Below, one piece after another: positions 2,666 through 32,435 of a DNA stretch of 44,616 nt. Below the pieces are notes generated by a model. That model was given only the letters and a program-made list of their open reading frames with translations. It was not told the origin of the DNA and made no database searches. How positions within the stretch are numbered: the first letter of the stretch is position 1; each line of letters opens with the position of its first letter. The position numbers were made by a program, and so were the translations under genes. Source of the stretch: Gammaproteobacteria bacterium (GTDB lineage Bacteria > Pseudomonadota > Gammaproteobacteria > GCA-001735895); NCBI GenBank assembly GCA_024225395.1, contig JAAEMR010000087.1, forward strand, positions 1 through 44,616, given 5' to 3'.

Positions 2666-5062
2666 TTAAATTTGGTGTATTGGTGAATCAGTTTTGGATT
2701 TCACTGATAATCCAGGCAATCTAATTGTGGCTACTGCACCTTGATCTTTGCCACCACTTTCCAAGAGGAGGCTACCTTGATTAGCTTCGATAAATGTTTT
2801 GCAGTAGTAAAGACCGAAACCTGACGATCCCTTGCTGGAAATTCCAAATTTAAAGATATCATCTATTCGGTCTGCCTCGATACCGGAGCCACTATCTTCA
2901 ATTCTGATAATAGTTATACCTTCGGTATGAGTGGTTGACACATTTATCCTGTGCGGTTTGCCTTCTTTTGCTATATTACTCTCAATTGCATCACAGCTGT
3001 TTTTAATTAGGTTGACCAGAACCTGCATTAATTTGTTTTTTTCAATGAGTACTTTGGGTAGATTTGGTGATAAACTTCTAAAAACTTTTATACTTCTTCT
3101 AAAAATCACTCCCTTTTGAATCTTCAAGGCATCTCTAACGATGTTGTTCAGACTGATACGTTCTTTCATTCCCTCTTTTTCCGGTGCATATGCCCGTTGT
3201 AGACTCAGTATCTCAGAGACGTATTCAACACCAGTAAAAATTGAGTCTACCATACCATTTAGTTTTCGATGATAATTATCAACCTCACCAATCAGACTTT
3301 TCATATAATTGAAGATCTGAATACCTTTTTTGTCTTTTGTGATATATTCTGTCAGATCAGTCTTATGCTTGGACATATCATTATAGCATTCTTTTAAATA
3401 CCTGCCTAAAATGTCACTTTTATTTTTCTTTAATTTTTCAGCTTCTATGGCTACTGGCGTAATCGCATTCCCAATATTATGCAGCACCATTGCGGAGAGC
3501 TGTGCTCTGCCTGCATCAACTGCCTTATTAATCAATTCTTTTTGTGCCTGCTCCAAATCCTTTGTACGATCTTTTACCATGGATTCAAGGTTCATCCGAT
3601 GATTGGCCAGTTCCTCTTCATCTTTTTTTCGTTTCGATATATCCCTGATAATACCTAAGACATTCCACTTCTCTCCAATTTTGACTGCCGACACCGATAG
3701 TTCAACAGCGAAGATCTTACTGTTTTTATGCTTTGCATCACCACCCCATATTTTTCCAATGACATCACCTTTTCCGGATACCTTAAATTCGGCAAATGCC
3801 TGTTGGTATTGATGATGGTATTTATCAGGTATCATAATCAAATAATCCTGACCCATGGCTTCGAGTGTCGAAAATCCGAAAATTTTAGTCGCTGCATTGT
3901 TCCAGAAGGAAATCTGACCATCGTTGTTAACCATCACTAACGCATCTTGCGCTGCTACGCTCATGGCTCTGAATTTTCCTTCACTTTCCTTCAGGCTCTG
4001 CATCAGAGATCGGTTCACCATGATTTCAGTTTCAAGTTCTATGGTTTTTATTCCAATTTCTTTTTTTTGACGATCTTCCTGGTTTAATCGGGTTTCCATC
4101 ATCATTGCTTTTATCTGCATTTTTCCAAACGCAATACTGCCAGCCAAAATAAAGAGTGCAAACACCAGTGCTATCAAAAAAGAAGTATTCAAAGGCCCCG
4201 TCACTTCTCTCACTGGATCAAGTGAGACCCAGAAAAAGGGGGTACCAACAATTTGGGTTCTCAGACCCCAAACATCCATCTCATTATGCTTCGTATCCCT
4301 AATAGTCTGTCGAATAGGATTCTCTGTCTCTGTTGTAACTAGTTCTGCAGGAAAATTTGATTCCGGCTCGGGAAAAAAAATGGATTCATCTCCAGATACT
4401 AACTGGATATATGATTTTTGGGTTTTATTGAGAAGGCCATGGTATTCCAGATCATCAATAAACGTTTTAAGATTCAGCCAGCCAAAAAACTGCCCTTTGT
4501 AGATGCCCTTGAAAAAATAGGGTACACCAATAACAACATTTATATGTCCGTCACTTAAAAATGCCTGTAATTCAGCTCCTGGCCGTGTAGTTTGATGTAG
4601 CAGCCGATCATCATTTGAATCATACTTAGTATCAGCAATGCCGATTTCCAAAAGCATTATCCCGGTTTCCTCTATAAAAGCAATCCGATCGAAAATTCTT
4701 GTACCAAGAATATCCCGTTCATTTATTAGCCGGTCTAATTTCTTTTTTATCTGTATCAGGCTCTCATCAAGTCCATATTTCTTGGACATATCGAGATTCT
4801 TATTTTCAAAATAATCCGCGATTTCTTTGGATTTCGCCAGAGTTTCAAAATCAGATTTTCGATCATGGAACATGTGAGTGATATTCATCACCTGAGCATG
4901 ATGCAGCTGGTGAATTATTTTAAGAGAACTCTGTCTAAGCCAGTTATGGGACTGATAATTCTTAAAAAGCAAAAAGCTAAATAAAACGATTATCAAAACG
5001 ACAGTTAATACTACAAGGACTTCATTTCTATTAATCTTTTTATGCATCAGCTTTAATATCAT
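2666..5062 (-). CDS. Membrane sensor histidine kinase (periplasmic sensor, PAS, LHNIGN-type DHp)
   Basis: A 798-residue sensor kinase. TM1 is at about residues 14-34, a large periplasmic region at about 35-290 looks Cache-like, and TM2 is at about 293-314. Then come a PAS domain with PAC (about 362-480), a coiled coil, and the phospho-acceptor helix with His528 in VLHNIGNAITPV. The C-terminal ATPase has N-box NLIKNSCDAI, DSGSGIEADRI and the unusual G2 box SGFGLYYCKTF. The H-box differs from the usual HELRTP and is shared with three other kinases in this window. There is no receiver, so the partner must be separate. It follows the gene at 5123-7174 by 60 nt and is probably co-transcribed. The start at 5062 has only a weak ribosome site; ATG 5047 is an alternative. 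The periplasmic ligand is unknown. Confidence 0.88.
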   Translation of the reverse strand: MILKLMHKKINRNEVLVVLTVVLIIVLFSFLLFKNYQSHNWLRQSSLKIIHQLHHAQVMNITHMFHDRKSDFETLAKSKEIADYFENKNLDMSKKYGLDESLIQIKKKLDRLINERDILGTRIFDRIAFIEETGIMLLEIGIADTKYDSNDDRLLHQTTRPGAELQAFLSDGHINVVIGVPYFFKGIYKGQFFGWLNLKTFIDDLEYHGLLNKTQKSYIQLVSGDESIFFPEPESNFPAELVTTETENPIRQTIRDTKHNEMDVWGLRTQIVGTPFFWVSLDPVREVTGPLNTSFLIALVFALFILAGSIAFGKMQIKAMMMETRLNQEDRQKKEIGIKTIELETEIMVNRSLMQSLKESEGKFRAMSVAAQDALVMVNNDGQISFWNNAATKIFGFSTLEAMGQDYLIMIPDKYHHQYQQAFAEFKVSGKGDVIGKIWGGDAKHKNSKIFAVELSVSAVKIGEKWNVLGIIRDISKRKKDEEELANHRMNLESMVKDRTKDLEQAQKELINKAVDAGRAQLSAMVLHNIGNAITPVAIEAEKLKKNKSDILGRYLKECYNDMSKHKTDLTEYITKDKKGIQIFNYMKSLIGEVDNYHRKLNGMVDSIFTGVEYVSEILSLQRAYAPEKEGMKERISLNNIVRDALKIQKGVIFRRSIKVFRSLSPNLPKVLIEKNKLMQVLVNLIKNSCDAIESNIAKEGKPHRINVSTTHTEGITIIRIEDSGSGIEADRIDDIFKFGISSKGSSGFGLYYCKTFIEANQGSLLLESGGKDQGAVATIRLPGLSVKSKTDSPIHQI

Positions 5063-5122: not shown

Positions 5123-7174
5123 TTATCGATTATAATTATTAAACTCAAGAACAGCTAAGGCTCCGAAGTTCTTGCCGTTGCTATCAATTGTCAGCCGCCC
5201 GTTGTTGGCTTCAACAAAAGTTTTGCAATAATACAGACCGAAACCGGATGAACCTTTACTGGACACTCCAAATTTGAATATTTTATCGATATCCTCAGCT
5301 TCAATACCACTCCCTGTGTCAGCCATAGTGATACCTATTGTGTCACCCTTTTCGAAAATGTCTATCGAGATTTCATGATCTTGTCTTTCCTGATTCTCAT
5401 CTATCGCATCACAGCTGTTTTTGATTAGATTGATAAGCACCTGCATTAATCTATTTTTTTCTATCAAAATATATAAGGGGTCTTTATGGTAATGCACTAA
5501 AATATGTATTTTCCTTCTGTTTATGGCGCTATCCTGAATTTTAAGAGCATCTTTGACAATCTGGTTCAAAATAGTTTTTTCCTTCATAACCTTATTCCCA
5601 GGTGCGTATGCACGCTGAAGGCTCAATATTTCCCCTATATATTGAACGCCTACCTCAATTTTATCTATAATTACTTTTTGTTCGTCCTGTATTGTTTCAA
5701 GCCCCTGAATCAAATTTTTCATATAACTGCTTACCTTTTTTCCCCGCTCATCCCGGGTAACATAATTGGTCAGATCAGTTTTGTTCAGAGCAAGGTCGTT
5801 ATAGCACTCCATAAGATAACGTCTCGCATTTTTAAGGGAGGGCGCTCTCAACTTCTCCAAATTTACGGAGACCGGGGTGACAGCATTTCCGATATTGTGA
5901 AGCACCATGGCAGAAACCTGTGCACGGCCGGCATCTACTGCATTGTTTAAAAGCTCACTTTGTATTTTTTTTAACTCTTGTGTGCGCTTGGCAATTCGAA
6001 CTTCAAGATTTTCTCTATGCTTATCAAGTTTCTTTTCAATGTCCTTCCGGGCTTGTATATCAACATGGGTACCTATAGCGCGGATAGGTTCGCGTCTGCT
6101 ATTAAAAGAAACGACCTTGCCTGTATCCAGAACCCAAAGCCATTTTCCATTTTTACAACGCATCCGATGTTCTGTGCGATAAACAGACGTTTCACCATTC
6201 AAATAGCGCCCCAAGCTTGCCATGGTATCACCTCTATCATCAGGGTGAATAAGAGTTTCCCAAGAAGACACATGACCTCTTATTTCATTCAATTCATATC
6301 CAAGCATTTCTGCCCAGCAATGATTGAACGTCACGTTACCTGATGGAATATCCCAATCCCACAGCCCTATTTGGCTGGCATCAAAGGCTAGCTCAAGCCT
6401 TTCCCGATTTTGCGCAAATTCAAGAGAGGTCGAGTTTAAAACTTCCTGGGATTTTACTATTTTAGCAATCATAAGGTTAAACAGGACCTGTATTTCCTGA
6501 ACTTCTTTAATATTCACTTCAAGCTGCAATGGCTTCACAAGATCCATCTCTGAAACGATGGTAGTAAACCCATGGATAACCTTACAAAGCTGATCAGATA
6601 ACCATTTTGAAAAAAAATAAGAAATCACAATGCCGGAGAATAAAACGAGGCTTGATACAAGGAGCAAACGACCTATCAGTTGTCTTTTATACTGGAGAAT
6701 ATTTGAAAGTGAAATGCCAAGTTCTACATATCCAATTGTCCTCTCAATATTCGATCTGTCAGGAACTTCTTTGATTATACCTAATATGTTTTCTAAGTAT
6801 TTTTTCTTTATTTTGTCGACAGAAAAGTCTATTTCGCTCAGTTTCTCCTTAGCTGAAAAATCGTTATTCTCGTCTTTATGAACCTGGTGTAATAGCTGTC
6901 CCCTGTTATCAAAGATAAGGGCATATTTCACACTGGTTTCCTTAAGCATATCTGTGCATAAATTATCAAGTTTTTCATCATCCTGAACCAGAATTCCCTC
7001 AATAGCCCGATAAGAAAAAGTTTTTATTAATGTTTCTGCTCTCAGATCAAGCTCTTTAAACCCGACGTGAGCCGATTGCTGATAGGAAAAATAATTGACA
7101 ACAAAAATAGTGAGGCCAACTAATAATGAACTGAACCCAACTATCATTGATTGTAGACTATATTTTTTCTGCAT
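5123..7174 (-). CDS. Membrane sensor histidine kinase (HAMP, PAS, LHNIGN-type DHp)
   Basis: A 683-residue sensor kinase. TM1 is at about residues 9-31, a periplasmic domain at about 32-166, TM2 at about 167-189 and HAMP at about 190-242. A PAS/PAC module (about 256-378) contains LIHPDDR and ends before a coiled coil. The H-box is VLHNIGNAVTPV with His426, and the ATPase ends with SGFGLYYCKTF as in the gene at 2666-5062. DHp and ATPase regions of the two are clearly paralogous, while the sensors differ. The ATG follows GGGAG at good spacing. A 223-nt gap separates it from the gene upstream, so it may have its own promoter; a short palindrome lies at 7227-7240. It has no receiver. Confidence 0.88.
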   Translation of the reverse strand: MQKKYSLQSMIVGFSSLLVGLTIFVVNYFSYQQSAHVGFKELDLRAETLIKTFSYRAIEGILVQDDEKLDNLCTDMLKETSVKYALIFDNRGQLLHQVHKDENNDFSAKEKLSEIDFSVDKIKKKYLENILGIIKEVPDRSNIERTIGYVELGISLSNILQYKRQLIGRLLLVSSLVLFSGIVISYFFSKWLSDQLCKVIHGFTTIVSEMDLVKPLQLEVNIKEVQEIQVLFNLMIAKIVKSQEVLNSTSLEFAQNRERLELAFDASQIGLWDWDIPSGNVTFNHCWAEMLGYELNEIRGHVSSWETLIHPDDRGDTMASLGRYLNGETSVYRTEHRMRCKNGKWLWVLDTGKVVSFNSRREPIRAIGTHVDIQARKDIEKKLDKHRENLEVRIAKRTQELKKIQSELLNNAVDAGRAQVSAMVLHNIGNAVTPVSVNLEKLRAPSLKNARRYLMECYNDLALNKTDLTNYVTRDERGKKVSSYMKNLIQGLETIQDEQKVIIDKIEVGVQYIGEILSLQRAYAPGNKVMKEKTILNQIVKDALKIQDSAINRRKIHILVHYHKDPLYILIEKNRLMQVLINLIKNSCDAIDENQERQDHEISIDIFEKGDTIGITMADTGSGIEAEDIDKIFKFGVSSKGSSGFGLYYCKTFVEANNGRLTIDSNGKNFGALAVLEFNNYNR

Positions 7175-7397: not shown

Positions 7398-8594
7398 TCA
7401 TATCACGTCTCCCTTGGTCTCATTGGACAACGGGATTTTCAAAGTAAAGGTTAATCCAGCTGGAATCCGGTTTTCAACCGTAATATGTGCATTATAAGCA
7501 GCCATCAATTGAGATGAGATAAAAAGGCCAAGACCAGATCCGGATTCGGTTGTATTATCCTCGGATTTAGTTGAAAAAAAGGGGTCAAAAATTTGAGGTA
7601 GTCTTACAGGATCGATGCCGGGGCCGGTATCAGAAAATGAAAGTTCAATTTCGGCAGCTTTATGCTTGGTTGATATTGTCAGCAGCTTTTTTTTCTGATT
7701 ATTCATTGCTTCGCATGCATTTTTCACAAGATTATAAAATACTTGTGAAAAATCAGAATATCTGCCACTAATCAAGGGCAGGGTGTCATTAAGATGGAAT
7801 TCCACTTCTACTTTATAGCGAAGGACAATTTCAGACTTTAAAAACCGGTATTCTTTTTCAATCAGCCTGTTTAAATCAATAGACTCAAGCTTCTCAACCG
7901 GGTTAGTCCCCCCTTGTATCAACATGTCATCCACAAGCTGATTCGTTTTTCCGATAGCCTCCAACACTTTACTGCTGTTCTTTTTTATCTGCTTGACCAG
8001 GGTGTTTATACCGTCTGATTTTATTTCCGGTGTCAATAGTAGTTTGTCAAATTTCAAGATACCTAATTGCATACTGGCCAAGGCCACGGATAGAGGTCCC
8101 CTGAGATTGTGAACAATCCCTTTAACCATTTTACCCGCAATGGCCTGACGTTCACGGGAGATTAATTCATTGGTCTGTTTTCTAACAGTTGCTTCAAGAT
8201 TTTTATTAAGGTCAGCTAATTCTTTTTTCGCATTATACAAGCGGATGAGGATTTCTGCTTTTGCTAGTAATTCATCCGGGTCGTAAGGTTTGGTGAGATA
8301 ATCATCTGCCCGAACCGAGTATCCTTTTATTCGGTCATCAAGGGCCGTCTTAGCAGACAATATGAGAACCATAATATTTTCATCCCTGGCTTTAATCTTT
8401 GAACAGACTTCAATGCCGTCCATACCTGGCATCATAACATCCAGAATAACCAGTGAAGGGGAATATTTTGAAACTTGTTTCAAGGCTTCTTCCCCGCTAT
8501 CGGCAGTACACAGTTCTTTTCCTGAGTCAGCAAAAATTCTTGTTAATGCATTTAAATTGTATTTCTCATCATCTACGAATAACAAAGTGTTCAT
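7398..8594 (-). CDS. Receiver-histidine kinase fusion (REC-DHp-ATPase), soluble
   Basis: A 398-residue soluble protein. An N-terminal receiver (Asp52 in VILDVMMPGMDG, Lys102 in TKPYDPDEL) is followed by a coiled coil, an H-box with His162 in GIVHNLRGPLSV, and an ATPase with NLVKNACEAM, DTGPGIDPV and GSGLGLFIS. It probably receives a phosphoryl group on the receiver and tunes its own kinase, or works as a relay hub. The start is placed at ATG 8594, preceded by AGGAAAAGCT, because translation from 8639 would add 15 residues unlike any receiver N-terminus. It lies 104 nt below the six-gene operon at 8699-14853 and may be a seventh member or have its own promoter. There are no membrane segments. 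Confidence 0.85.
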   Translation of the reverse strand: MNTLLFVDDEKYNLNALTRIFADSGKELCTADSGEEALKQVSKYSPSLVILDVMMPGMDGIEVCSKIKARDENIMVLILSAKTALDDRIKGYSVRADDYLTKPYDPDELLAKAEILIRLYNAKKELADLNKNLEATVRKQTNELISRERQAIAGKMVKGIVHNLRGPLSVALASMQLGILKFDKLLLTPEIKSDGINTLVKQIKKNSSKVLEAIGKTNQLVDDMLIQGGTNPVEKLESIDLNRLIEKEYRFLKSEIVLRYKVEVEFHLNDTLPLISGRYSDFSQVFYNLVKNACEAMNNQKKKLLTISTKHKAAEIELSFSDTGPGIDPVRLPQIFDPFFSTKSEDNTTESGSGLGLFISSQLMAAYNAHITVENRIPAGLTFTLKIPLSNETKGDVI

Positions 8595-8698: not shown

Positions 8699-9490
8699 TT
8701 AAATCAAATGGTGATAATACAATGCATATTTGTAGACCTTGGTTACTTCCTCTCCTATAATATTGCTATAATTGACTCCGATTTTTTTGCAGGTATACCG
8801 TGAATAACAAACATCAAGAGCTGTACTGCGGATCTCTTTTCTCATGTCCTGGTCAAGTCCTGAAAAAATTTCTTCTATATCATCTGAGGTGAGTTCTATA
8901 GTATCGAATTCTTTTCGATCGAAATGACCAATTTGCCTGACCTTGTCCACCGATGCCATGTCTGTTAAACCGTTTGCAGCCGCTTGTGTTACGAAAGAGT
9001 CGGTCCATTGATCAAACTGTTTTTTTTCTGGTGTATTTTTTAGACGTTTGCTTGCAAAATGAGTTTGATCTGAAGACTCGAACAGGTCTTGTGTTAAAAT
9101 TGTATCCGTTGTCATCAGCCTGGAAAGCCGTTTAGCCTTATCGATTGTCATTTTAAGATTATAATCTTCCCAAGGTTTCAGGATGAATTTATAAACACCT
9201 ATCTCATTAATGGCTTGGATCGCGACGTTTATGTCGGCATAAGCCGTCAGCATCATGGTAATTATATTCGGATATCCCTGATTAACAACCTGTAAAAATT
9301 CAACTCCAGTCATTTGGGGCATGCGCTGATCCGATATGATCAGATCAATATGATTCGTTTCTATCAAAGAAAGGGCCTCGAAGCCATTTTCCGCGGTTAG
9401 GATATCAAGTCCCTCTTCATTCAGTGTACGATTCAATGATCTGATAATGGATGGTTCATCATCCACAATAAGTAATTTTGTTTTTTCCAT
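8699..9490 (-). CDS. Response regulator: KPW-type receiver with unrecognised C-terminal domain
   Basis: A 263-residue protein. The receiver (residues 1-120) has Asp54 in IISDQRMPQM and Lys105 in FILKPWEDY. Residues about 130-263 form a domain I do not recognise. It contains an acidic stretch (TIELTSDDIEEIF), a Cys/Tyr-rich stretch (DVCYSRYTCKKIG) and a YKYALYYHHLI tail. The start is ATG 9490, behind AGGAATTGGC; starting at 9553 would add 21 residues overlapping the upstream gene. It is the last gene of the tightly spaced operon beginning at 14853. Its output is unknown, and no DNA-binding helix-turn-helix is evident. Confidence 0.8.
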   Translation of the reverse strand: MEKTKLLIVDDEPSIIRSLNRTLNEEGLDILTAENGFEALSLIETNHIDLIISDQRMPQMTGVEFLQVVNQGYPNIITMMLTAYADINVAIQAINEIGVYKFILKPWEDYNLKMTIDKAKRLSRLMTTDTILTQDLFESSDQTHFASKRLKNTPEKKQFDQWTDSFVTQAAANGLTDMASVDKVRQIGHFDRKEFDTIELTSDDIEEIFSGLDQDMRKEIRSTALDVCYSRYTCKKIGVNYSNIIGEEVTKVYKYALYYHHLI

Positions 9491-9510
9491 GCCAATTCCT
9501 TTAGTAAATT

Positions 9511-10932
9511 TTAGTGAAGAAGGGTGTTCATATTCTGCGACATTTGTTTCCAATCTATCGCGTTCTGGATAGTTGCATGGAACTCGTGGTCCTTCCAGGG
9601 TTTCATAATAAATTTATATATGCCGGCATCATTAATGGCAGCCATGGCTTTATCTAAATCGGCGTATCCGGATAATATAATCCTTGCAGTAGCCGGACAT
9701 TTAGTTTTAACAATCTTTAGGAACTCAACACCCTTCATTCCTGGCATGTTTTGATCGCTGACCACAACATCTGCGTGCTCGTATTTGAGCATTTTTAAGG
9801 CTTGATCAGCACTGCTGGCTGTTAATATGTTATAACCATCGGACTGAAACAAACGAGTTAGCGATTTTAAAATGCGCTTATCATCATCGACAAACATAAG
9901 AGTGTGTTTATTTTGATTCCTCTGGCCGATATTCCGATTTAACAATCCATTGATCCCTCTCTTATCCAGTAAGTAAACGAATTTATCAACAAGCATTGGG
10001 TCAAATTGACTCCCCTTATTTTGAATCAATATTTCACGTGCTTTAGAAATCTCTAACCCATCTCTATAAGGCCTGTCCGAGGTCATGGCGTCGAATGTAT
10101 CGGCAATAGTTATAATTCGAGAACATATATGGATCTGGTTTTGACCAATTCCGTCCGGATATCCTTTACCATCCCAGCGTTCATGATGTTGGCGAATAAA
10201 TATACTGGCAGTTTTAAGGTGTTTAACTGAATTGGTAAGTTCATATCCAAGAACAGTATGATGCTTCATTACTTCAATCTGCTTGGTCGTCAGTTTCCCG
10301 GGTTTGCCCAAGATTGTTTCATCAATTCCGATTTTACCACAATCATGTAACAGGGCCCCATATATCAAATGAAGTAGCTGTTCGTTGGGCACACCAACAG
10401 AACGTGCCAACTCTATTGCAAAATCACGGACTCGGGTGCAATGACCTTTTGTATAAGTATCTTTGAGTTCAATAGCCTCAGCTAGTGCCATGACTGTTTC
10501 TATGTTTGATTGCTGTAATTGTACATAAAGTTGACGGTTTCTCTCAATCTCAATGTCTTTTTGCTTAAGCGCCTTGTTGATCACAGTAATCAATTCATTG
10601 TCGTTCCAAGGCTTATCGAAAAACCGATAAATTTCTCCTTCATTAATCGCCCTTTGCATTAAACTTTGTTCAGAGAAAGCAGTCAACATAATCCGGATAA
10701 TATCTGGATACTTTTCACGGACTTTGATCATAAAATCCAGTCCTGACATTATTGGCATCCGATGGTCTGAAATGATCATTGAAACAGGTACTCTGCGGAG
10801 AACATTGAATGCATCTTCGGCACTTTCTACAGTTATTGCATGGAGGTCGTTGTTTCTTAATAATCGATCAAGACTTTCACGGATCAACTCCTCATCATCC
10901 AGAATCAAGATAGTATGATCAGATGGATCCAT
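9511..10932 (-). CDS. REC-HD-GYP-REC response regulator, predicted c-di-GMP phosphodiesterase
   Basis: A 473-residue protein with two receivers around an HD-GYP domain. REC1 has Asp56 (IISDHRMPIM) and a DKPW lysine. The HD-GYP domain (about 140-330) keeps the catalytic HD at 196-197 (LLHDCGKIGID), HHERWDGKGYPDG with GYP at 257-259, and DTFDAMTSDRPYR. REC2 (about 343-465) has Asp393 (VVSDQNMPGM) and FIMKPW. HD-GYP enzymes hydrolyse cyclic di-GMP, so this is the clearest enzymatic output of the operon. Standard RpfG-type proteins have one receiver; the C-terminal second one suggests two inputs. ATG 10932 has an ideal AGGAG and overlaps the upstream gene by 14 nt. Confidence 0.9.
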   Translation of the reverse strand: MDPSDHTILILDDEELIRESLDRLLRNNDLHAITVESAEDAFNVLRRVPVSMIISDHRMPIMSGLDFMIKVREKYPDIIRIMLTAFSEQSLMQRAINEGEIYRFFDKPWNDNELITVINKALKQKDIEIERNRQLYVQLQQSNIETVMALAEAIELKDTYTKGHCTRVRDFAIELARSVGVPNEQLLHLIYGALLHDCGKIGIDETILGKPGKLTTKQIEVMKHHTVLGYELTNSVKHLKTASIFIRQHHERWDGKGYPDGIGQNQIHICSRIITIADTFDAMTSDRPYRDGLEISKAREILIQNKGSQFDPMLVDKFVYLLDKRGINGLLNRNIGQRNQNKHTLMFVDDDKRILKSLTRLFQSDGYNILTASSADQALKMLKYEHADVVVSDQNMPGMKGVEFLKIVKTKCPATARIILSGYADLDKAMAAINDAGIYKFIMKPWKDHEFHATIQNAIDWKQMSQNMNTLLH

Positions 10933-11461
10933 GATGAGTCTCCTCATAGTCTTTCAATCTTAATATCACAGAGCCATCCTCTTGCCTGTCAACTTTAGTT
11001 ATTCCTGGATGACTGCGCTCGAGTTCAGATAATACCACATCCCTTAATCTCACTTCCTCTGTAAGATTTTTTTTTTGACGGATCATTTCGAGAAACTCTA
11101 TAGCGCGCATAACAGTGACACGCAGATCGTCATCGTTCCAAGGCTTAATTATAAATTTGTAAATACCGGCATGATTAATAGCGTACAATGCATTTTGGAT
11201 TTCAGCATGTGCCGTAAGGATAATAGTCAATATATCTGGATATAAAATCCGAACTTGCCTTACAAAATCAATACCATCCATGCCAGGCATTGACTGGTCA
11301 GAGATCACCAGGTCGACATGGACACCTTTTAATATTTTTAACCCTTGCTCAGCGCTTGCCGCTGTAATTAAATGCAAATTTTCATTCATGAATGTTCTTT
11401 TAAGTGCTGATATTATACCGGCCTCATCATCCACAATTAATATAACTGGATTTAGCTTCAA
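10919..11461 (-). CDS. Stand-alone KPW-type receiver with short C-terminal extension
   Basis: A 180-residue protein. The receiver has Asp55 in LVISDQSMPGMDG and Lys106 in FIIKPWNDDDL. It is followed by a helical linker and about 40 residues containing VLRLKDYEE-like sequence that I cannot assign. It resembles the first receiver of the HD-GYP protein encoded next. The start is a TTG codon with AGGGG eight bases upstream; no ATG is better placed. It starts 11 nt after the REC-kinase at 11473-12882 and overlaps the next gene by 14 nt, so it is translated within the operon. It likely shuttles phosphoryl groups or binds a partner, since no output domain is visible. Confidence 0.82.
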   Translation of the reverse strand: MKLNPVILIVDDEAGIISALKRTFMNENLHLITAASAEQGLKILKGVHVDLVISDQSMPGMDGIDFVRQVRILYPDILTIILTAHAEIQNALYAINHAGIYKFIIKPWNDDDLRVTVMRAIEFLEMIRQKKNLTEEVRLRDVVLSELERSHPGITKVDRQEDGSVILRLKDYEETHHGSI

Positions 11462-11472
11462 TTGAATGACCC

Positions 11473-12882
11473 CTATTTTAGATTTACATTTTCATTTATT
11501 GGCAAAAACACTGTAAATGTGGTTCCTTTACCCAAATGACTTTCAACTTCAATTTTACCATTATGTGCACTAATGATTTCATAAACGATACTCAACCCTA
11601 ATCCAGTACCGGTCCCAACAGGTTTAGTAGTAAAAAACGGATCGAACAAGCTGTTGATGTTTTCCTTTGGAATACCGCAACCTGTGTCTGAAATACTGAT
11701 CTTAACAAACTGATCCTCTTTTCGACGCCCTTGACTTTCGAACGTTGTTTCAATTACGATTTCTCCCTGCTCATCAATAGCCTGACTGGCATTAATGATC
11801 AAATTCATAAATACCTGACTCATCTTCTGGGGGTAACACGGGATAAGTGGAATATCATTGTAATTCTTTCTAATAAGGGCTTTGTACTTGAATTCATTTT
11901 TAGCCATATTTAGTGTCGTATCGATGGATTTATTGATATCGATCTCTTTAAATTCGGCTTCATCAATGTGAGAAAAAGTCTTTAAATCTTTTACTATTGT
12001 TTTCACTCTTTCAACGCCATCAAGAGATTCGTTGGCTAAATCATCAAGATCTTCAAAAATCATTTCTATTTTGTTCTCTTCTTTAAATGTCACTAGTTGA
12101 TTAACAAGATCATCTGATTCTGGAGTTTTCAGTGAGGAAAGATAGGATTGAATCATATTAAATTTATCATATAAACCGGTAATTTTGATAAAATATGTTT
12201 TTACTGCAGATAAATTTGAATTAATAAAAGCGATTGGATTATTAATTTCATGGGCAACCCCTGCGGCCAAAACCCCGACAGAAGCCATTTTTTCAGCCTG
12301 AACAATCATTGCGGCCTGTTTTCGAACCTTTTTTTTAAGATCTTTGTTCATGTCTGCCATGGCATCATTCGCCTTTTTTAAACTAATCTCTAAAATGTCT
12401 CGCTTTCGTTCAAGATTCCATTCATTGGTCAGAGCCTTTGCAAACTGAAGAATTTCTTCATGGTTAAATGGTTTTCTCAAATAAAAGATATCATCCCTGC
12501 CGGTTACACTAATTATGTCATCCGGTGTGTATTCGCTGTAGGCAGTGACAATTACAATTTTAATACAGGGATCAATATCCCAAATTTGCTGTGTTGTTTC
12601 TGCCCCGTTTAAGCCGGGCATCTTCATATCAATAAAGGCAACAGCAAATGGGTTTCCAGCTGCCTTGGCCTCAGAAACCAGTTTTACACCCCTATTACCA
12701 TTTGCAGCCAGACTAATTGTATATATGTCTTTTTTTGTTTTTGGCAGAGCTTCGCATTCACCAAAAAGATGCCTTCCCATCCTAAACGCTTCAGAGTCTT
12801 CCTCAGGGAGAAAAATACTTTGGTAGGTCTCCCTGATACCTTCATCGTCGTCGATTACAAGAATCCTATTGTTTATGTTCAT
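11473..12882 (-). CDS. Receiver-histidine kinase fusion with enlarged receiver
   Basis: A 469-residue soluble protein. The receiver (about 1-150) has Asp85 in VAFIDMKMPGLNG and Lys137 in YLRKPFNHEE. It carries about 30 extra residues between its first helix and second strand compared with ordinary receivers. A coiled coil leads to a canonical H-box, His211 in GVAHEINNPIAF, and an ATPase with NLIINASQAI, DTGCGIP and GTGLGLSIVYE. Start ATG 12882 follows GGAGAAAAT. The ATG overlaps the TGA of the upstream gene (ATGA), so translation is coupled. It is a close paralogue of 30419-31810 and shares its receiver type with 12879-14138. Confidence 0.88.
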   Translation of the reverse strand: MNINNRILVIDDDEGIRETYQSIFLPEEDSEAFRMGRHLFGECEALPKTKKDIYTISLAANGNRGVKLVSEAKAAGNPFAVAFIDMKMPGLNGAETTQQIWDIDPCIKIVIVTAYSEYTPDDIISVTGRDDIFYLRKPFNHEEILQFAKALTNEWNLERKRDILEISLKKANDAMADMNKDLKKKVRKQAAMIVQAEKMASVGVLAAGVAHEINNPIAFINSNLSAVKTYFIKITGLYDKFNMIQSYLSSLKTPESDDLVNQLVTFKEENKIEMIFEDLDDLANESLDGVERVKTIVKDLKTFSHIDEAEFKEIDINKSIDTTLNMAKNEFKYKALIRKNYNDIPLIPCYPQKMSQVFMNLIINASQAIDEQGEIVIETTFESQGRRKEDQFVKISISDTGCGIPKENINSLFDPFFTTKPVGTGTGLGLSIVYEIISAHNGKIEVESHLGKGTTFTVFLPINENVNLK

Positions 12883-14138
12883 ATTTTCTCCAGCAAACAA
12901 CCCTTATCTTTCATTAAAACAGCAAAACCAGTTTCTTTATATGCACCAGAACTCCAGGCCCGAATATCCCATTTATGAAGATCAGCAATTGCCTTTGCTT
13001 TTGGTAAACTTAATCCAAAGCCTTGATTGCCATGGCGTGCCGCTTCAAGATTTGAAAATGGATTGAATATATCGTTAATTCGATCAGGATCAATCCCACA
13101 CCCCTGATCCCGTATGGAAAATAAAACATTTCCTTTTTCACAAGAAGCACAAATTCGAACGGTACCACCTGATTCAGAAAACATTACTGCATTGCTGATT
13201 AATGCAGAGGCCAGTATTTTAAATAAGCCAGGGTCTGCATGAATCGATTTACCCTTTTGAATTTCAACTTGAATTTTAAGTTGCTTTCGTTGAATATCAT
13301 TTTCATATTCTGCAATCGATGATTTGATTTCTTCATCCAACAATATTTTCTTGAAATTTATTTTACGTTCTGGATCAGAGATCTGGAAATACGAAACCAT
13401 TGCGCTCATTAACCCTGAAATTCTTTCAACACCTTTATCGATAAGCTTTATCATTTCAGTGTTATTTTTATTTAATTCTTCTTTATCCATGATGTCTGTT
13501 GCACTGATCCAGTTCAACGGAGTATTAATCTCGTGAGAAAGATATCCAATAAAATTTGATTTTTCTTTATCTAGTTGACGAAGTCGGTCATTCTTTTTTT
13601 TTAATTCACTCGTTCTTTCTGCAACAGCCTTTTCAAGTCTCTTCCGATGTTGTTTCTCAGCTTGTTCGAGATTCCAGTTCTGAGTTAATGTTTTTGATAG
13701 CTGTCGAATTTCTTCAGGGTAAAAGGGCTTACGGAGAAGTAAAATATCCTGACGACCAAGCATATTAATAATATCATTCACTGCATATTCGGTATAAGCA
13801 GTTACAATAACAATTTTAATATCCGGGTCGATCATCCAGATCTGTTTCGCTGTCTCAACACCATCCATACCCGGCATTTTCATATCAATAAAGGCGACTG
13901 CAAAAGGATTGTGAGCATCTTGTGCGATTTGAATTTCACGAATACCAAGGTCTGGTTTACTGAATAGTTTAACGTCATACTGATCAACAGTGATATTAAT
14001 TTCTGGATCAATATTTTCAAACAAGTCATTACCAGTTATAAATGAATCTTCATGATGGTCTTGGTCCAGAATATCCTGATATGTCTCCAAGATAGCGGTG
14101 TCATCATCAATTACCAGTATCCTACCATTGAATTCCAT
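12879..14138 (-). CDS. Receiver-histidine kinase fusion with enlarged receiver (HisKA type)
   Basis: A 419-residue soluble protein. The receiver has Asp85 in VAFIDMKMPGMDG, Lys137 in LLRKPFYPEE and the same insertion after helix 1 as the next gene. The H-box has His202 in GYLSHEINTPLNWI. The ATPase domain has N-box ALISNAVMFSE, DQGCGIDPDRI and GNQGFGLSLPKA. Its C-terminal part is somewhat divergent (GYKETGFAVLM-like end), so activity should be tested. Start ATG 14138 follows AGAGGCAAG. The gene overlaps its upstream neighbour by 17 nt and its downstream neighbour by 4 nt, showing strong translational coupling inside the operon. Confidence 0.86.
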   Translation of the reverse strand: MEFNGRILVIDDDTAILETYQDILDQDHHEDSFITGNDLFENIDPEINITVDQYDVKLFSKPDLGIREIQIAQDAHNPFAVAFIDMKMPGMDGVETAKQIWMIDPDIKIVIVTAYTEYAVNDIINMLGRQDILLLRKPFYPEEIRQLSKTLTQNWNLEQAEKQHRKRLEKAVAERTSELKKKNDRLRQLDKEKSNFIGYLSHEINTPLNWISATDIMDKEELNKNNTEMIKLIDKGVERISGLMSAMVSYFQISDPERKINFKKILLDEEIKSSIAEYENDIQRKQLKIQVEIQKGKSIHADPGLFKILASALISNAVMFSESGGTVRICASCEKGNVLFSIRDQGCGIDPDRINDIFNPFSNLEAARHGNQGFGLSLPKAKAIADLHKWDIRAWSSGAYKETGFAVLMKDKGCLLEKI

Positions 14139-14853
14139 CTTGCCTCTCTTTCCCGTCCTTATTCGCAGCATGAATATCTACTATTTTTCTTGATCCTGCG
14201 TAATTTTTAGTTTTATATGAGTTTATTGTCATAATCTTCAACAGAAGCTCACTAAGCTCATTTATCGATTCAGTAATACATATAATATTTTCATTAAAAA
14301 TAGAGTTTTCTGAATTTTGCTTTGAGAGTGATTCGATGAGTTCACAATTTCCAAGGATCACCTGCAGGGGTTGAGCAAATTCATGACAAACTGCTCCGGC
14401 CATTTCTATCACACCTTTAAAGCGCTCTTGTTCTGAATACTCTTCTTTTTTATTTTCCACTAATTGTCTAAATTTTTTTTTCAAACCATGATAACCCATG
14501 GCATGATCAATGGCAGTATTGAAAGCATCATCATCCCATGGCTTTTTAATGAATCTGAAAACGTGCCCTTTGTTAATCGAACGAACTGCAGCGTCAACAT
14601 CGGCATAACCTGTCATCATTATACGCACAGCCAACGGAAGTACTTGCTTAATCTTTTCAAGAAAGGAGGTGCCCTCCATATCCGGCATTCGTTGATCAGA
14701 GATGACAACAGATGGATTGATTGATGTTACCTGTTTAAGTGCGTCAATCGGTGATGAAAAGATATAACAGCGGTACGTTGATCCTTTCAGCACTCTCGCA
14801 CACGCCTTTAAAATATGATGGTCATCATCAACGATCATTATTCTTGCATTCAT
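14122..14853 (-). CDS. Receiver-DHp protein lacking a kinase ATPase domain
   Basis: A 243-residue protein, first gene of the operon. The KPW-type receiver has Asp53 in VVISDQRMPDMEG and Lys104 in FIKKPWDDDAF. It is followed by a DHp-like helical pair with His157 in MAGAVCHEFAQPLQVI. The protein ends soon after the second helix (KNYAGSRKIVDI...), with no N, G1 or G2 box. It is therefore likely a phosphotransfer protein or a substrate for a kinase in trans, rather than an autokinase. The ending is a normal stop overlapping the next start by 17 nt, so this seems a genuine architecture and not a recent truncation. A sigma-54 promoter lies upstream at 14901-14916. Confidence 0.82.
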   Translation of the reverse strand: MNARIMIVDDDHHILKACARVLKGSTYRCYIFSSPIDALKQVTSINPSVVISDQRMPDMEGTSFLEKIKQVLPLAVRIMMTGYADVDAAVRSINKGHVFRFIKKPWDDDAFNTAIDHAMGYHGLKKKFRQLVENKKEEYSEQERFKGVIEMAGAVCHEFAQPLQVILGNCELIESLSKQNSENSIFNENIICITESINELSELLLKIMTINSYKTKNYAGSRKIVDIHAANKDGKERQDGIQW

Positions 14854-14900
14854 ACGGTTAACCTTTTTTTATTAATAATCGATTTACTGATACGGTCAAA

Positions 14901-14916
14901 TGCAAAGAAGGTGCCA
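14901..14916 (-). promoter_or_regulatory. Sigma-54 (-24/-12) promoter of the six-gene phosphorelay operon
   Basis: Read on the minus strand the site is TGGCAC-CTTCT-TTGCA, matching the RpoN consensus TGGCAC-N5-TTGCA with exact GG-N10-GC spacing. It lies about 48 nt upstream of the ATG at 14853, giving a predicted transcript start near 14889. A weaker sigma-70-like pair (TTGACC, 16 nt, TATTAA) overlaps just downstream at 14872-14899. Confidence 0.75.
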
Positions 14917-15205
14917 GATGTAATAAAAAAACCAGCAACCCCACTTAATAAGTGGTTTTATAAAAAAATTAAAAAGTCCAGGATTTCCTTGCTATTAAAA
15001 TGAGATGTTTTCAAACTATATCTATCAATGTGATTTGCGATCGCTTTTGTTTATTTTACAGGATCAAGTTTGAGCATTTCAAACGAAAACACCACAACGA
15101 TGTAACAGAAAAAGAATCGTTTTTATTACACCTGCAATCTGTAATATCCTCGTCCATTAAATATTGAATTAGGATATTAGATGAAAAATATTCTATAATA
15201 AATTC

Positions 15206-15224
15206 ATGTGGTAAAGAACCACAT
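15206..15224 (-). terminator. Possible terminator hairpin after the REC-FapA gene
   Basis: ATGTGGT and ACCACAT form a perfect 7-bp stem with a 5-nt loop, 8 nt beyond the stop at 15232. On the minus strand the stem is followed only by GAATTTATT, so the U-run is weak. It is stronger in the plus direction (TTTTT). Confidence 0.35.
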
Positions 15225-15231
15225 TTTTAAA

Positions 15232-18108
15232 TCAGAGATTAAGATGTTCAATCCGCTCAGAAGCATCAGATTCTTTGGGAAATATAATTAAAAATTTAGA
15301 AGCACCAAAATCATCTTTTAACACTTTTACAGATTCATTCCCAAATAGTTTTGTATCCCTGAATGCTTTACTGGTAATAACTAACATTGGTGTTGGGTCC
15401 TCGTTTCGCACATTATCAGTATATTTTTTTTTCTGACCTTCCAGATCATTTATTTGATCAGTGATCGTCTTGATTTCAGTCTCACACCTATCAATATCCG
15501 TCTGGGTTTCATCCTGTTTCTTAAAAATATTATCGATACGCTCGTTTGCATCTTGAATACGGATTTCCAGCTCTTTTAGTTCTTTAACTAAATCTTTCTT
15601 TTCGTTAGGTGATGATGCTTTTCCTATTTTTTTCTCAGTGGCTTCTATTTTTTTGTTAATTTTGTCCTGTGCAAATGTCTGATTAGCAACATCAGCATGC
15701 AGACTGTTAAAATCATCCGTATGTATCAATTTTTCCTTAATTATTTTTTTCATACTGACTTTGAATGTTTCAATCCTTGAATCAAACCGGGTGCAGAACC
15801 AATTAATATGGTCATCTGTACCGATCCGAATCTTTGCACCCTCTGACTTTATTGTTCCGATTTGTTTAACAGTAGATTCTTGTCGGAACGCGATATTTGA
15901 TGAGGTTATCCGCCCTGTGGTATTGTCCAGCCGCCCACTGGTAAAAATACGGGATGCCATAATTTCCCGGGTAACCATGACATCTTTAAAAGCAAATAGT
16001 TTGGATCGGTTGACAAACTTTGTCTGGATACTTCCCTCAGCTTCTATTGTGGCATTTACAATCCCGTTAGATACCTTTACATCGCCTGTTGCTGTAACAT
16101 TACCGCCGTTGATCTCTTCACAGATCAGTTCAGCACATTCTACAGAAAATCCTTCAGTTACTGCACCCTTGACAAGAACATTGCCGTTAAACTGAATATT
16201 TCCTGACTTGAGGTCCACGTTTCCAAAAACTGTAAACTGCTCAAGAACGGAAACCTCACCTTTTATATTGAGTACAGGTTGGCCGGTCACGAGTGCAGTC
16301 AACTTAAGCCCGTCTTCTGACAATTCTGCTCCATCTCCAAATGTAAGAGTGGCATCTTCGACCTCTCCTACTTCGATTAGCTGATCAAATATATCTTTAC
16401 CTGGTTTAGGATCTTGCATTGGAATTTTCTCAGCTAATGTCTCTCCTCTTTTGATAAAAGCAGATTTCCCCCGGGATGTAAAATCGATAGACCCATCTTC
16501 CCTGATCTGGCCGGCAGACTCAGCTTCTGTATTGAAATGATAAATTAGTTGAGCAGGATTCCCAGCAGATGCCGGTACACCCATAGCCACGATAAATTTT
16601 TCAGATGGATCGGTGCAATCCTTGATAAATTTTCGAATATTTACATCCTTGACAATCCCATACTTGATGCCTCTTTTTTTGATTAAATCTTTTATCGGCT
16701 TCACATTCTCTGTCCCATGGATGGCTTCGGGAACTCGTATCCATGCCTGTGTCCGGTCACCCGACACCTGCAGGTCAACAACAGCACCAAACTCGGAGGA
16801 GAACTCACCGGCGTTGCTCATATCTTGCTGTCCGGCCCTTGTCCGGTCCTGCGTTGCCATGACTTCATCCTTTAAGTCCGAAGCGATGACATCTGACTCT
16901 ACCAGAATATCTCCCAACAGTCTTGTTACCCCACTGTCTTCAAAATTATTTAATTGCTTTCGAAATGCCCGATCGATATCTTTTTTGGTGACGACTTCCC
17001 TGTCAAGCAGCATTTGAGCGAACTGCCGATCCAGCAACCGGGCTTCAATCAGTGATATTTTTGCATAAATCCGACTTAAATCCCGTCGTCTCAGAAACCC
17101 AGCATCTAAAAGAACCTTATCTATAGTTAAACCGGTGGACAGCTCAGATTCCTTCTCTTCAAGAATTTCAGCCCCCTGTTTGAATTCCCCTTTTGTAATG
17201 TATCCGTCATTGAAAGCCAGGGCTCCGAATCCTGGAATCTCTTTGTAATCATCGATGGTGACACCGGTCATCGGTTCGGCACCAATACCGAATAATCTGG
17301 ATTCCACAGCCTGGACGATATTCTCGATTGCAGGATCAATAATTTCGAACATATCATCGTCCAGGTCTTCTATACTTATCCGGTTGGAGGAGCCTGGATT
17401 ACTGAATGGCATTTTGTTCTCCTGCGCAATATTTTTGAATACATCGATTGATTCATCGACACATATATTGAACGCATCGTCTAAATTCCTTTTATCAATA
17501 GTAATCGTGCGAGCTAAAAGTTCTTCTAACCCAAGAAATACCTCTTTGAATTCAGCCTGCTCTTTCGCATCTTGTATGGCTTGCGACAGCAGGGCTGCCT
17601 CCTCTTGTTTCAGCTTGAGATGACTGGTGTACTTTAAGACAGTTTTGCGCAGGTTTTCTGCAAAATAAAATAATTTAGCATTTTGCCTCTGGGTTTTCTT
17701 GAACAGCCTTTTTCGCTCATGCCTCCCCATAAAAATATCCTGCTCTTCACGTATACGAAGGATTAAATCTTCTTCATCCCAGGGCTTTGATATATATTGA
17801 TGAATTTCTCCTTTGTTCACCGCGTCTATGGCATCATCAAGGTCGGAATATCCTGTAACCAGCATTCGCCTGGATTCCGGGCTGAGTAAAATACTTTTTT
17901 CAAGAAATTCACTGCCATTCATCCCGGGCATCCGCTGATCAGATATGATCAAGAAAAACTGGTTTTGAGTATTTTCCAAAAGTTTGATACCCTGTTCTGC
18001 GCTTAATGCTGAAATTATTGATTCAAAGCCTTCCCGCCGTAAAGTACGGCGCATACTTTTGATGATAAACTCTTCATCATCCACCACCAGAACTCCAAAC
18101 TTAGTCAT
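15232..18108 (-). CDS. Receiver-FapA (DUF342) fusion protein
   Basis: A 958-residue protein. The receiver (1-125) is intact: Asp57 in IISDQRMPGMNG and Lys108 in YISKPWDEEDL. A middle region (about 200-400) contains repeated helical units resembling the N-terminal units of MshE/GspE-type proteins (LLDAGFLRRRDL, ILVESDVIASDL). Then comes a FapA/DUF342 domain with IDFTSRGK, its N-terminal lobe and a right-handed beta-helix-like repeat (GNIQFNGNVLVKGAV, GNVTATGDVKVSNG). A long coiled coil (about 800-900) and a small end domain follow. FapA-family proteins are polymer-forming and often linked to flagella or polar structures. The start is set at ATG 18108, one base after the upstream stop; ATG 18117 would overlap it. 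It is paralogous to 23643-26072, which has lost the receiver Asp. Confidence 0.85.
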   Translation of the reverse strand: MTKFGVLVVDDEEFIIKSMRRTLRREGFESIISALSAEQGIKLLENTQNQFFLIISDQRMPGMNGSEFLEKSILLSPESRRMLVTGYSDLDDAIDAVNKGEIHQYISKPWDEEDLILRIREEQDIFMGRHERKRLFKKTQRQNAKLFYFAENLRKTVLKYTSHLKLKQEEAALLSQAIQDAKEQAEFKEVFLGLEELLARTITIDKRNLDDAFNICVDESIDVFKNIAQENKMPFSNPGSSNRISIEDLDDDMFEIIDPAIENIVQAVESRLFGIGAEPMTGVTIDDYKEIPGFGALAFNDGYITKGEFKQGAEILEEKESELSTGLTIDKVLLDAGFLRRRDLSRIYAKISLIEARLLDRQFAQMLLDREVVTKKDIDRAFRKQLNNFEDSGVTRLLGDILVESDVIASDLKDEVMATQDRTRAGQQDMSNAGEFSSEFGAVVDLQVSGDRTQAWIRVPEAIHGTENVKPIKDLIKKRGIKYGIVKDVNIRKFIKDCTDPSEKFIVAMGVPASAGNPAQLIYHFNTEAESAGQIREDGSIDFTSRGKSAFIKRGETLAEKIPMQDPKPGKDIFDQLIEVGEVEDATLTFGDGAELSEDGLKLTALVTGQPVLNIKGEVSVLEQFTVFGNVDLKSGNIQFNGNVLVKGAVTEGFSVECAELICEEINGGNVTATGDVKVSNGIVNATIEAEGSIQTKFVNRSKLFAFKDVMVTREIMASRIFTSGRLDNTTGRITSSNIAFRQESTVKQIGTIKSEGAKIRIGTDDHINWFCTRFDSRIETFKVSMKKIIKEKLIHTDDFNSLHADVANQTFAQDKINKKIEATEKKIGKASSPNEKKDLVKELKELEIRIQDANERIDNIFKKQDETQTDIDRCETEIKTITDQINDLEGQKKKYTDNVRNEDPTPMLVITSKAFRDTKLFGNESVKVLKDDFGASKFLIIFPKESDASERIEHLNL

Positions 18109-18109
18109 A

Positions 18110-18841
18110 TTAGCCATCTGTTTCCGCCTTCTGGATATCCGTCATTTCAAACCCGTGGCGGACAGCAATATCGCTAAATTGTTCGAAAAGTTCGGATATC
18201 ACGGCTTTACAAAGAATATCATTTTTCTCAGGTGTCAACATATTCTTCTCCCGAACCATTTGTTCTATTTCTCTGACATGATTTCTGAATTCAAATCCCT
18301 TTTCCAGTATCTTGTTCATTTCCATTATTTTGTTTTCTTCAACTGCAATAGATCTCTTAAATTTTTTTGATTTGTTTTTCAGCTCAATATTCAATTTATA
18401 CAACTTGTCGTTCTGTCCATCATTCTGCCTAAAAAGCTTGTGATTTTCCATTGTAAGTTCAAATTGTTCCAGTCCTCTTTTAACGATCCCCAGAAATTCT
18501 TTTTGAATCCATGGCTTGGCTATAAAACGATGAATCGCACCGATATTAACCGCCTTGGTAACCGCCTTGATATCGCCTTGCTTTGCAATCAGGTACCGCA
18601 GGGTATCTGGTGCACGTTTTTTTGCCTCAACAAAAAATTTAGCACCTTCCATGTCCGGGAGATTTTGATTGGATAAAATCAAGGAAAATTTCATTGATTT
18701 TGGTTGTATCCAATTCAAGGCATCTTCGCCAGATGAAGCATATACATATTTGACACTGATTTTTTTCAATTCCGCGCCTGCAGTTTTTCCCACTTTCTCC
18801 TCAGGATCTACGATCAACACGATATGACTTTTTTTTTTCAT
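18110..18841 (-). CDS. Pseudo-receiver/coiled-coil protein, partner of REC-FapA
   Basis: A 243-residue protein. The N-terminal receiver fold is clear (IVLIVDPEEKV, FIAKPWIQKEF with Lys109), but the phospho-acceptor Asp is Asn58 in ILSNQNLPDMEG, and the conserved Thr/Ser is Ala (YLIAKQ). It should not be phosphorylated normally. A coiled coil (about 130-190) follows, then a C-terminal segment ending RHGFEMTDIQKAE that matches the end of the paralogue at 26074-26814. Start ATG 18841 has a strong GGAGGAGAG. The stop lies one base before the likely start of the REC-FapA gene, so the pair is translationally coupled. A sigma-54-type promoter lies at 18907-18922. Confidence 0.85.
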   Translation of the reverse strand: MKKKSHIVLIVDPEEKVGKTAGAELKKISVKYVYASSGEDALNWIQPKSMKFSLILSNQNLPDMEGAKFFVEAKKRAPDTLRYLIAKQGDIKAVTKAVNIGAIHRFIAKPWIQKEFLGIVKRGLEQFELTMENHKLFRQNDGQNDKLYKLNIELKNKSKKFKRSIAVEENKIMEMNKILEKGFEFRNHVREIEQMVREKNMLTPEKNDILCKAVISELFEQFSDIAVRHGFEMTDIQKAETDG

Positions 18842-18906
18842 GTAGTCTCTCCTCCCATGTTCGCGCACGGTAAAAGTATCCTTTTCAACATACCCAAACT
18901 ATCCGA

Positions 18907-26072: not shown

Positions 26073-26073
26073 T

Positions 26074-26814
26074 TTAGACAATGCCATCCTTCATAATCTT
26101 TGGCATTTCAAAGCCATCACGGTTAGCTAATGCTTCAAATTCAGATAGTAAATCAATCATGATGTCTGAATAAAATGATGAAATCATTTCTGAATTCAGC
26201 TGGCCCTTTTTGATGAAAACTGTTTTCATTTCCTCAATTATCTGGTCGGCTGAAATTTCGGGTATCCTGACTATTTTTTCAATCTGATTCTGAATTTGAT
26301 CGATATCTTCATCAAGCAGGGAAATCTCTTGTCCATGTTTATCTATAGCTGTCTTCAGTTCCATATCGAGATGGTAGAGTTTTTTATTCTGTTCTTTTGC
26401 TGTGGCAATCAACGTATTGTCATCAAACCTGGATTCAAATATTTTTAATCCTGCTTTTATTGTTGTCATCAGCATCTCATTATCCCATGGTTTTTTAATA
26501 TACCGGTGCACTGCTCCTTTGTTAATTGAAGCAACTATGGTTTCAATATCCGAATATGCAGTTAAGAGAATACGAATCGTATCAGGACTAATCATCTTTA
26601 CTTTTTCCAGGAAGTCTGTACCCAGCATATCGGGCATCCGCTGATCTGAAATTACCAGTGAAAACACTTTATCAGTGGAATTAATCACTTCAAGAGCTTC
26701 GGAAACAGCCTGTGTGTACAAAAAATCAATACCTTCCATTGATAGGAGCCTGCCTATAGATTTGCCAACACTTTTCTCGTCATCAACTACAAGTATTTTA
26801 TGATTTTGTTCCAT
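26074..26814 (-). CDS. KPW-type receiver/coiled-coil protein, partner of pseudo-REC-FapA
   Basis: A 246-residue protein. The receiver is intact: Asp57 in LVISDQRMPDMLG, Thr in ILLTAYSD and Lys108 in YIKKPWDNEML. A coiled coil (about 130-190) and a C-terminal segment (SEFEALANRDGFEMPKI) follow. That segment matches the end of the protein encoded at 18110-18841, where the receiver has Asn instead of Asp. It probably passes its phosphorylation state to the FapA partner encoded one base downstream. The ATG follows AGAGAGATAC. A sigma-54-type promoter lies at 26863-26878. Confidence 0.87.
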   Translation of the reverse strand: MEQNHKILVVDDEKSVGKSIGRLLSMEGIDFLYTQAVSEALEVINSTDKVFSLVISDQRMPDMLGTDFLEKVKMISPDTIRILLTAYSDIETIVASINKGAVHRYIKKPWDNEMLMTTIKAGLKIFESRFDDNTLIATAKEQNKKLYHLDMELKTAIDKHGQEISLLDEDIDQIQNQIEKIVRIPEISADQIIEEMKTVFIKKGQLNSEMISSFYSDIMIDLLSEFEALANRDGFEMPKIMKDGIV

Positions 26815-26932: not shown

Positions 26933-27116
26933 AAAAACTTAAATCAGCCGATTTTTGCCGATCACAAAGAGATGTTTTTAAAATAACCATCTGAAATTAT
27001 AAGAAATCAAGACAAAGTCACTAAATTACCGAGTTTCAGCTACAATAGGCTGAATTTTTAATCTAATCGCTATACAATACCCCCTGCCTATATTAGCAAC
27101 TCTCTATCTGGTAATG
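26933..27116. repeat. Long diverged direct repeat, copy A
   Basis: About 180 nt, starting AAAAACTTAAATCAGCCG and ending in ATTAGCAACTCTCTATCTGG, match the stretch at 36848-37027 in the same orientation with scattered substitutions and small gaps. Here the right end covers the last codons and stop of the kinase gene at 27104, so the copy is mainly the 3' flank of that gene. Confidence 0.8.
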
Positions 27117-31821: not shown

Positions 31822-32223
31822 TTATTCACTTATGTGCTGAATTCGTTGATACTGTATTATAGCCAGTCTTATTATCTCGGTATACGCTTCATTAGACCAT
31901 GGTTATTGAATAAATGAAAAAATATCACCTCTGGTCACAGTGGAGACCAGAGGACTGACATCTGCATTACCGATCATTATGATTCCGATGGCGTCCGTAT
32001 TCTCAATGCGAATGCGACGTATCAGGTTGATTCCGAATATATGCTGCATCCTCTGATCTGATAAGATAATTGCCGGCTTTATTTTGGAAGCGACATCAAG
32101 TGCTTTCACAGGAGAGCTGAAGGTTCTGCACTGAACCGGAGTCCAGGTAAGCGAGCACTTACACGTATCCAACATCCTGATATCATCATCAATAATTATG
32201 ATTTTTTTATTTGCATTAGCCAT
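31822..32223 (-). pseudogene. Receiver protein broken by a stop at the conserved lysine
   Basis: From ATG 32223 (behind AGGACTTAGCA) the frame encodes a single receiver (KIIIIDDDIRM, ILSDQRM with the Asp) up to DIFSFIQ, then meets TAA at 31903-31905. Beyond it the same frame continues PWSNEAYTEIIRLAI... to a TAA at 31822, giving a 133-codon receiver of normal length. The relatives have FIKKPW here, so the two Lys codons AAA AAA became CAA TAA. Further damage is visible: Pro after QRM is Gln, and the conserved Thr is Ile (IIMIGNAD). The N-terminal half resembles the receiver at 14122-14853. It could still make a 106-residue peptide, but not a working receiver. Confidence 0.82.
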
Positions 32224-32435
32224 TGCTAAGTCCTGCCTTTTTTTAATATTTGCCTTAAGCAATTCTACATTTTCTAATTAGCACCGTTTTATATTCGCTA
32301 AACAACAAAGAATATGCCGAAGTCTAATAAAAGTTAGTAGGCACCGGCTCAGTATATATGAAGATGTAGAATTCTATGACTTTATCATACTTATCCGATA
32401 AAAAACGGCAGAGTACTCTAAATCAAATCATTACC

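Follow-up and report, generated by a model that had tools for sequence, protein, structure and literature searches.

The stretch of DNA analysed here (the window) makes up one complete 44.6-kb contig from a MAG. On its minus strand, from 14853 to 8699, lie six co-directional ORFs, g1 to g6, at the positions given in a preliminary description of this DNA. Starts were chosen as those with a Shine-Dalgarno-like sequence (14853, 14138, 12882, 11461, 10932, and 9490), and a plausible ribosome-binding site precedes each gene. The genes had been described as tightly packed with a 4-nt ATGA overlap, and they are: g1 and g2 overlap by 17 nt, g2 and g3 by 4 nt (ATGA), and g4 and g5 by 14 nt; g3 and g4 are 11 nt apart, and g5 and g6 are 20 nt apart. 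We infer that the six genes are co-transcribed. From g1 to g6, the Pfam architectures are REC plus a weak HisKA, REC-HisKA-HATPase, REC-(weak HisKA)-HATPase, REC, REC-HD_5-REC, and REC plus an unmatched C-terminus. All seven receivers keep D12, D13, D57, T or S87, and K109 (CheY numbering), and none of the six proteins matches a DNA-binding domain. The original count of seven receivers and the lack of a DNA-binding output are both borne out.

The unit likely starts in the 378-nt gap upstream of g1 (14854..15231, minus strand), judged from consensus matches. This gap contains weak terminator-like hairpins following a REC-FapA gene and a promoter-like site at 15082-15053, and such sites are no more numerous in the region than in shuffled sequence. 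At the other end, a REC-HK gene, g7 (7398..8594, minus strand), lies 104 nt downstream of g6, with no predicted terminator found in the 104-nt gap. Thus, the unit may extend to eight receivers and three kinases, and the operon boundary first proposed may be short by one gene. As a counterpart of the REC-HK that adjoins a tailed receiver in loci L147, L152, and L153, g7 was rejected, since the receivers do not group together.

The kinases g2 (12879..14138, minus strand, 419 aa) and g3 (11473..12882, minus strand, 469 aa) are complete, and g1 (14122..14853, minus strand, 243 aa) is an H-box protein with no CA domain, in agreement with the two kinases and kinase-less DHp described before. The receivers of g2 and g3 group together (100/100). 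The kinase half of g3 scores 268.7 bits against the NCBIfam model NF038348 (T2SS_HK), under its curated cutoff of 450, and g3-related kinases are present in the compared loci. No sensor domain is recognisable in g2 or g3, and both are receiver-first; therefore, input is expected to come from other kinases. That the unit is self-contained, as had been suggested, is doubtful: its kinases have no recognisable sensor, a further receiver-kinase follows 104 nt downstream, and signalling genes continue on both sides. Elsewhere in the window, a g3 paralogue (30419-31810, 59% identical) is preceded by a truncated receiver (31903-32262) that is 34% identical to the receiver of g1, and the two together resemble a partial duplicate of the operon that has decayed. 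Four other kinases (2666-5062, 5123-7174, 27104-28969, and 32436-33683) have in common an 'LHNIGN' H-box region and lack a Pfam HisKA match.

The receiver of g1 is intact, and its H157 lies within a full H-box, HEFAQPL. The HisKA match of g1 is weak (E 3e-4, below the Pfam cutoff), and in the structure model the receiver is confident and the helical C-terminal part is of low confidence, mostly with pLDDT < 50. In a comparison of the window with 60 loci, no ORF other than g1 encodes a receiver protein with such an H-box and no HATPase. A scan of genome contigs with g1 returned mostly receiver-only relatives, and no REC-DHp counterpart was found among the 95 relatives and the fetched loci. As for the parts of a phosphorelay, the kinases and receivers are intact, and the DHp of g1 is a match below cutoff with a low-confidence model; a branched relay is plausible.

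The gene g5 (9511..10932, minus strand, 473 aa) encodes a REC-HD-GYP-REC protein whose two receivers and HD-GYP site are all intact. Its motifs are complete (HCTR at 164, HDCGK at 196, HH at 224, HHERWDGKGYP at 249, and DTFDAM at 278), and g5 is predicted to be a c-di-GMP-degrading enzyme. The claim that c-di-GMP hydrolysis is the only recognisable output is uncertain, since the C-termini of g4 and g6 may have roles of their own. The best solved structure match is PDB 4MCW ('Metal dependent phosphohydrolase'; E 5e-40), which resembles the HD-GYP part of g5 (residues 131-324) and leaves the receivers outside the match. Against NCBIfam NF053512 (NosR family), g5 scores 438.1 bits, above the curated cutoff of 400, a score that sums three matched stretches and is raised because g5 has two receivers.

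Full-length relatives of g5 occur beside a tailed receiver of the g4 type in five genomes, with 39-41% identity over about 465 aa. The second receiver is degenerate in all five (L147, L152, L153, L156, and L160), with the phosphorylation site lost, and is intact in g5; therefore, conservation gives no support for a phosphorylated C-terminal receiver. This receiver of g5 is 43-44% identical to those of g4 and g6, versus 22-29% to its positional counterparts, and we considered that it was acquired from g4 or g6 by fusion or conversion. However, the positional counterparts are degenerate and fast-evolving, so that g5 might instead have retained its own. In the receiver tree, where support is limited by few alignment columns, g4, g6, and the C-terminal receiver of g5 group together (97/85), as expected from local duplication, and the N-terminal receiver of g5 falls with its counterparts (89/82).

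The last gene, g6 (8699..9490, minus strand, 263 aa), encodes a receiver, modelled with confidence, and a C-terminus of about 120 aa that has no Pfam match and is modelled mostly with pLDDT < 50. This C-terminus has no match in 395 Desulfobacterota genomes, and g6 has none in viral contigs.

Whether through mis-binning or foreign origin, the contig does not appear to belong with the rest of its MAG, which is taken to be gammaproteobacterial on account of its methylcitrate-cycle genes. A search for 16S genes as a guide to taxonomy found none. The tetranucleotide correlations of its two halves with other sampled MAG contigs are 0.58 and 0.69, and those of other MAG stretches over 12 kb are 0.83-0.92. 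Several genomes of the same genus and family have proteins 71-83% identical to a citrate synthase-like control taken from another contig, whereas the window proteins gave only weak matches there in the same query. Because the contig looks foreign, same-family genomes are uninformative on conservation, and relatives were sought elsewhere. Two REC and FapA gene pairs lie in parallel order in the window (18110-18868 with 15232-18117, and 26074-26814 with 23643-26087). Their FapA proteins are 33% identical over 508 aa; the receiver of 18110-18868, upstream of the operon, is degenerate, with N in place of its phosphoacceptor D; and the N-terminal region of the FapA protein at 23643 is REC-like and can be aligned with the REC of 15232 at 25%.

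Alignments and a tail profile identify g4 (10919..11461, minus strand, 180 aa, TTG start) as a stand-alone receiver with a conserved C-terminal tail. The g4 tail, LERSHPGIT..RQEDGSVIL, lies outside its Pfam and NCBIfam matches, and the consensus in aligned g4 relatives is LE..[FYH]PGI[ST], after which comes an acidic stretch. At E <= 1e-30, full-length g4 finds matches in 81 of the 395 Desulfobacterota genomes, a set that includes receivers of other proteins. With a profile of the receiver end plus the tail, full-length tails were found in roughly 50 of the 395 Desulfobacterota genomes (among the matches listed), in about a dozen of 148 Nitrospirota genomes, and in 3 of 184 further genomes from the class to which the MAG belongs.

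A cluster of a kinase, a REC-HD-GYP protein, and a g4-type receiver recurs in Desulfobacterota, in Nitrospirota, and rarely in Gammaproteobacteria, often also with HDOD proteins or a REC-MshEN-GspE ATPase. The neighbourhoods of 52 tailed genes (a set that counts the window and also L097, probably a REC-PAS wrongly scored as tailed) were compared with 40 background receiver loci. These were chosen among the receiver hits of only two Desulfobacterota genomes, so that the enrichment is indicative and does not amount to a matched control. Within about 7.5 kb, a kinase lies near 48 of the 52 tailed genes versus 28 of the 40 background loci, REC-HD-GYP near 36 versus 2, HDOD near 28 versus 4, and REC-MshEN-GspE near 14 versus 1. 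Sigma-54 activators, the one HTH type counted in those loci, show the reverse pattern (3 of 52 versus 22 of 40), so that absence of this type of DNA-binding output is typical of the module. At L096:4960-7362 and similar loci, REC-MshEN-GspE ATPases adjoin tailed receivers, which suggests a link there to type II secretion or type IV pili.

The preliminary description had made conservation of gene order a check on the operon. The gene content recurs, as HK, REC-HD-GYP, and g4-type REC; the exact six-gene order was not seen in any other genome searched, nor were the REC-DHp or the g6 C-terminus. The g1 REC-DHp, the g6 C-terminus, and the exact order may be lineage-specific decoration.

Literature searches, which covered open-access sources, found no such module named, and partial likenesses exist. 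NosR, whose HD-GYP motif is degenerate in Burkholderia pseudomallei, is a REC-HD-GYP regulator that is phosphorylated by NosK, a kinase lacking a sensor of its own (PMC12570481). The score of g5 above the NF053512 cutoff and the feature of a sensorless kinase that phosphorylates a REC-HD-GYP protein (PMC12570481) recall this system. However, g5 has a second receiver and an intact HD-GYP, and the operon has several extra receivers. There is no match to FIST, the domain of the partner NosP, among window proteins scanned with Pfam, although such a gene may be located outside the window. In Desulfovibrio vulgaris, REC-HD-GYP proteins hydrolyse c-di-GMP, the isolated domains more strongly than the full-length proteins, and three of four HD-GYP regulators tested are Mn-dependent c-di-GMP phosphodiesterases (PMC4114195). 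Regulators such as DVU0722 and DVU2933 share their domain combination with g5, but are described as single regulators and not as parts of a seven-receiver unit with a tailed receiver. A further likeness is to the Desulfobacterota and Nitrospirota clusters of HK, REC-HDOD, REC-HDGYP, and tailed REC, which share the core genes, including the five REC-HDGYP-REC relatives of g5. They differ in carrying REC-HDOD or REC-MshEN-GspE, in the degenerate second receiver of the g5 relatives, and in that no REC-DHp was seen in them.

Taking these observations together, we assign a probability of about 60% to the reading that g1 to g6 form a single translationally coupled unit, which is an enlarged version of the recurring c-di-GMP module and works as follows. 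The core of the module would be a kinase, a REC-HD-GYP protein, and a tailed receiver, often with HDOD or REC-MshEN-GspE. The N-terminal receivers of g2 and g3 would be phosphorylated by kinases other than these two, with g7 and the PAS kinases at 5123 and 2666 as candidates, and would then set the activity of the two sensorless soluble kinases. In turn, g2 and g3 would load the 'KPW'-type receivers of g1, g4, g5 (at both ends), and g6, with the DHp of g1, phosphorylated in trans, as a possible intermediate between kinases and receivers. Phosphorylation of g5, the presumed enzyme output, would alter c-di-GMP hydrolysis in one direction or the other, and g4 (through its PGI[ST] tail) and g6 might either contact other proteins or serve as phosphate sinks.

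A simpler scheme, to which we give a minority share of belief, has no relay. The kinases g2 and g3 would phosphorylate duplicated receivers in parallel, g5 would be the sole output, g4 and g6 would drain phosphoryl groups, and the histidine of g1 would be a phosphatase or a remnant of dimerisation. Such a fan-out fits the grouping of the g4, g6, and C-terminal g5 receivers, and also the subthreshold HisKA match of g1, with its poorly modelled helices and lack of a detected counterpart. However, g1 retains its full H-box with the histidine, and conservation of the g4 tail across phyla argues for more than a sink role. It is improbable that the six genes are a chance run, jointly transcribed yet not one pathway, in a contig where most genes encode signalling proteins and duplicated blocks are present, given that the set of kinase, REC-HD-GYP, and tailed REC recurs in distant genomes and a full-length g5 relative adjoins a tailed REC in five of them.

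Returning to the expanded module, a doubtful and more specific extension would make the g4-type receiver an undescribed adaptor. When phosphorylated, it would dock its PGI[ST] tail on a partner, for instance the HD-GYP protein or, in genomes that have it, the REC-MshEN-GspE motor, and so couple receiver state to local control of c-di-GMP. In the operon described here, this arrangement would be enlarged by a DHp-only intermediate and by the second working receiver of g5, which would create a two-input gate.

Our analysis brings out a recurring c-di-GMP module, found in phyla that have been little studied, and its stand-alone receiver with a conserved tail. This tail, which neither Pfam nor NCBIfam names here, is the most testable novelty. 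The expanded copy in the window would show how modules of this kind enlarge through local duplication of receivers.
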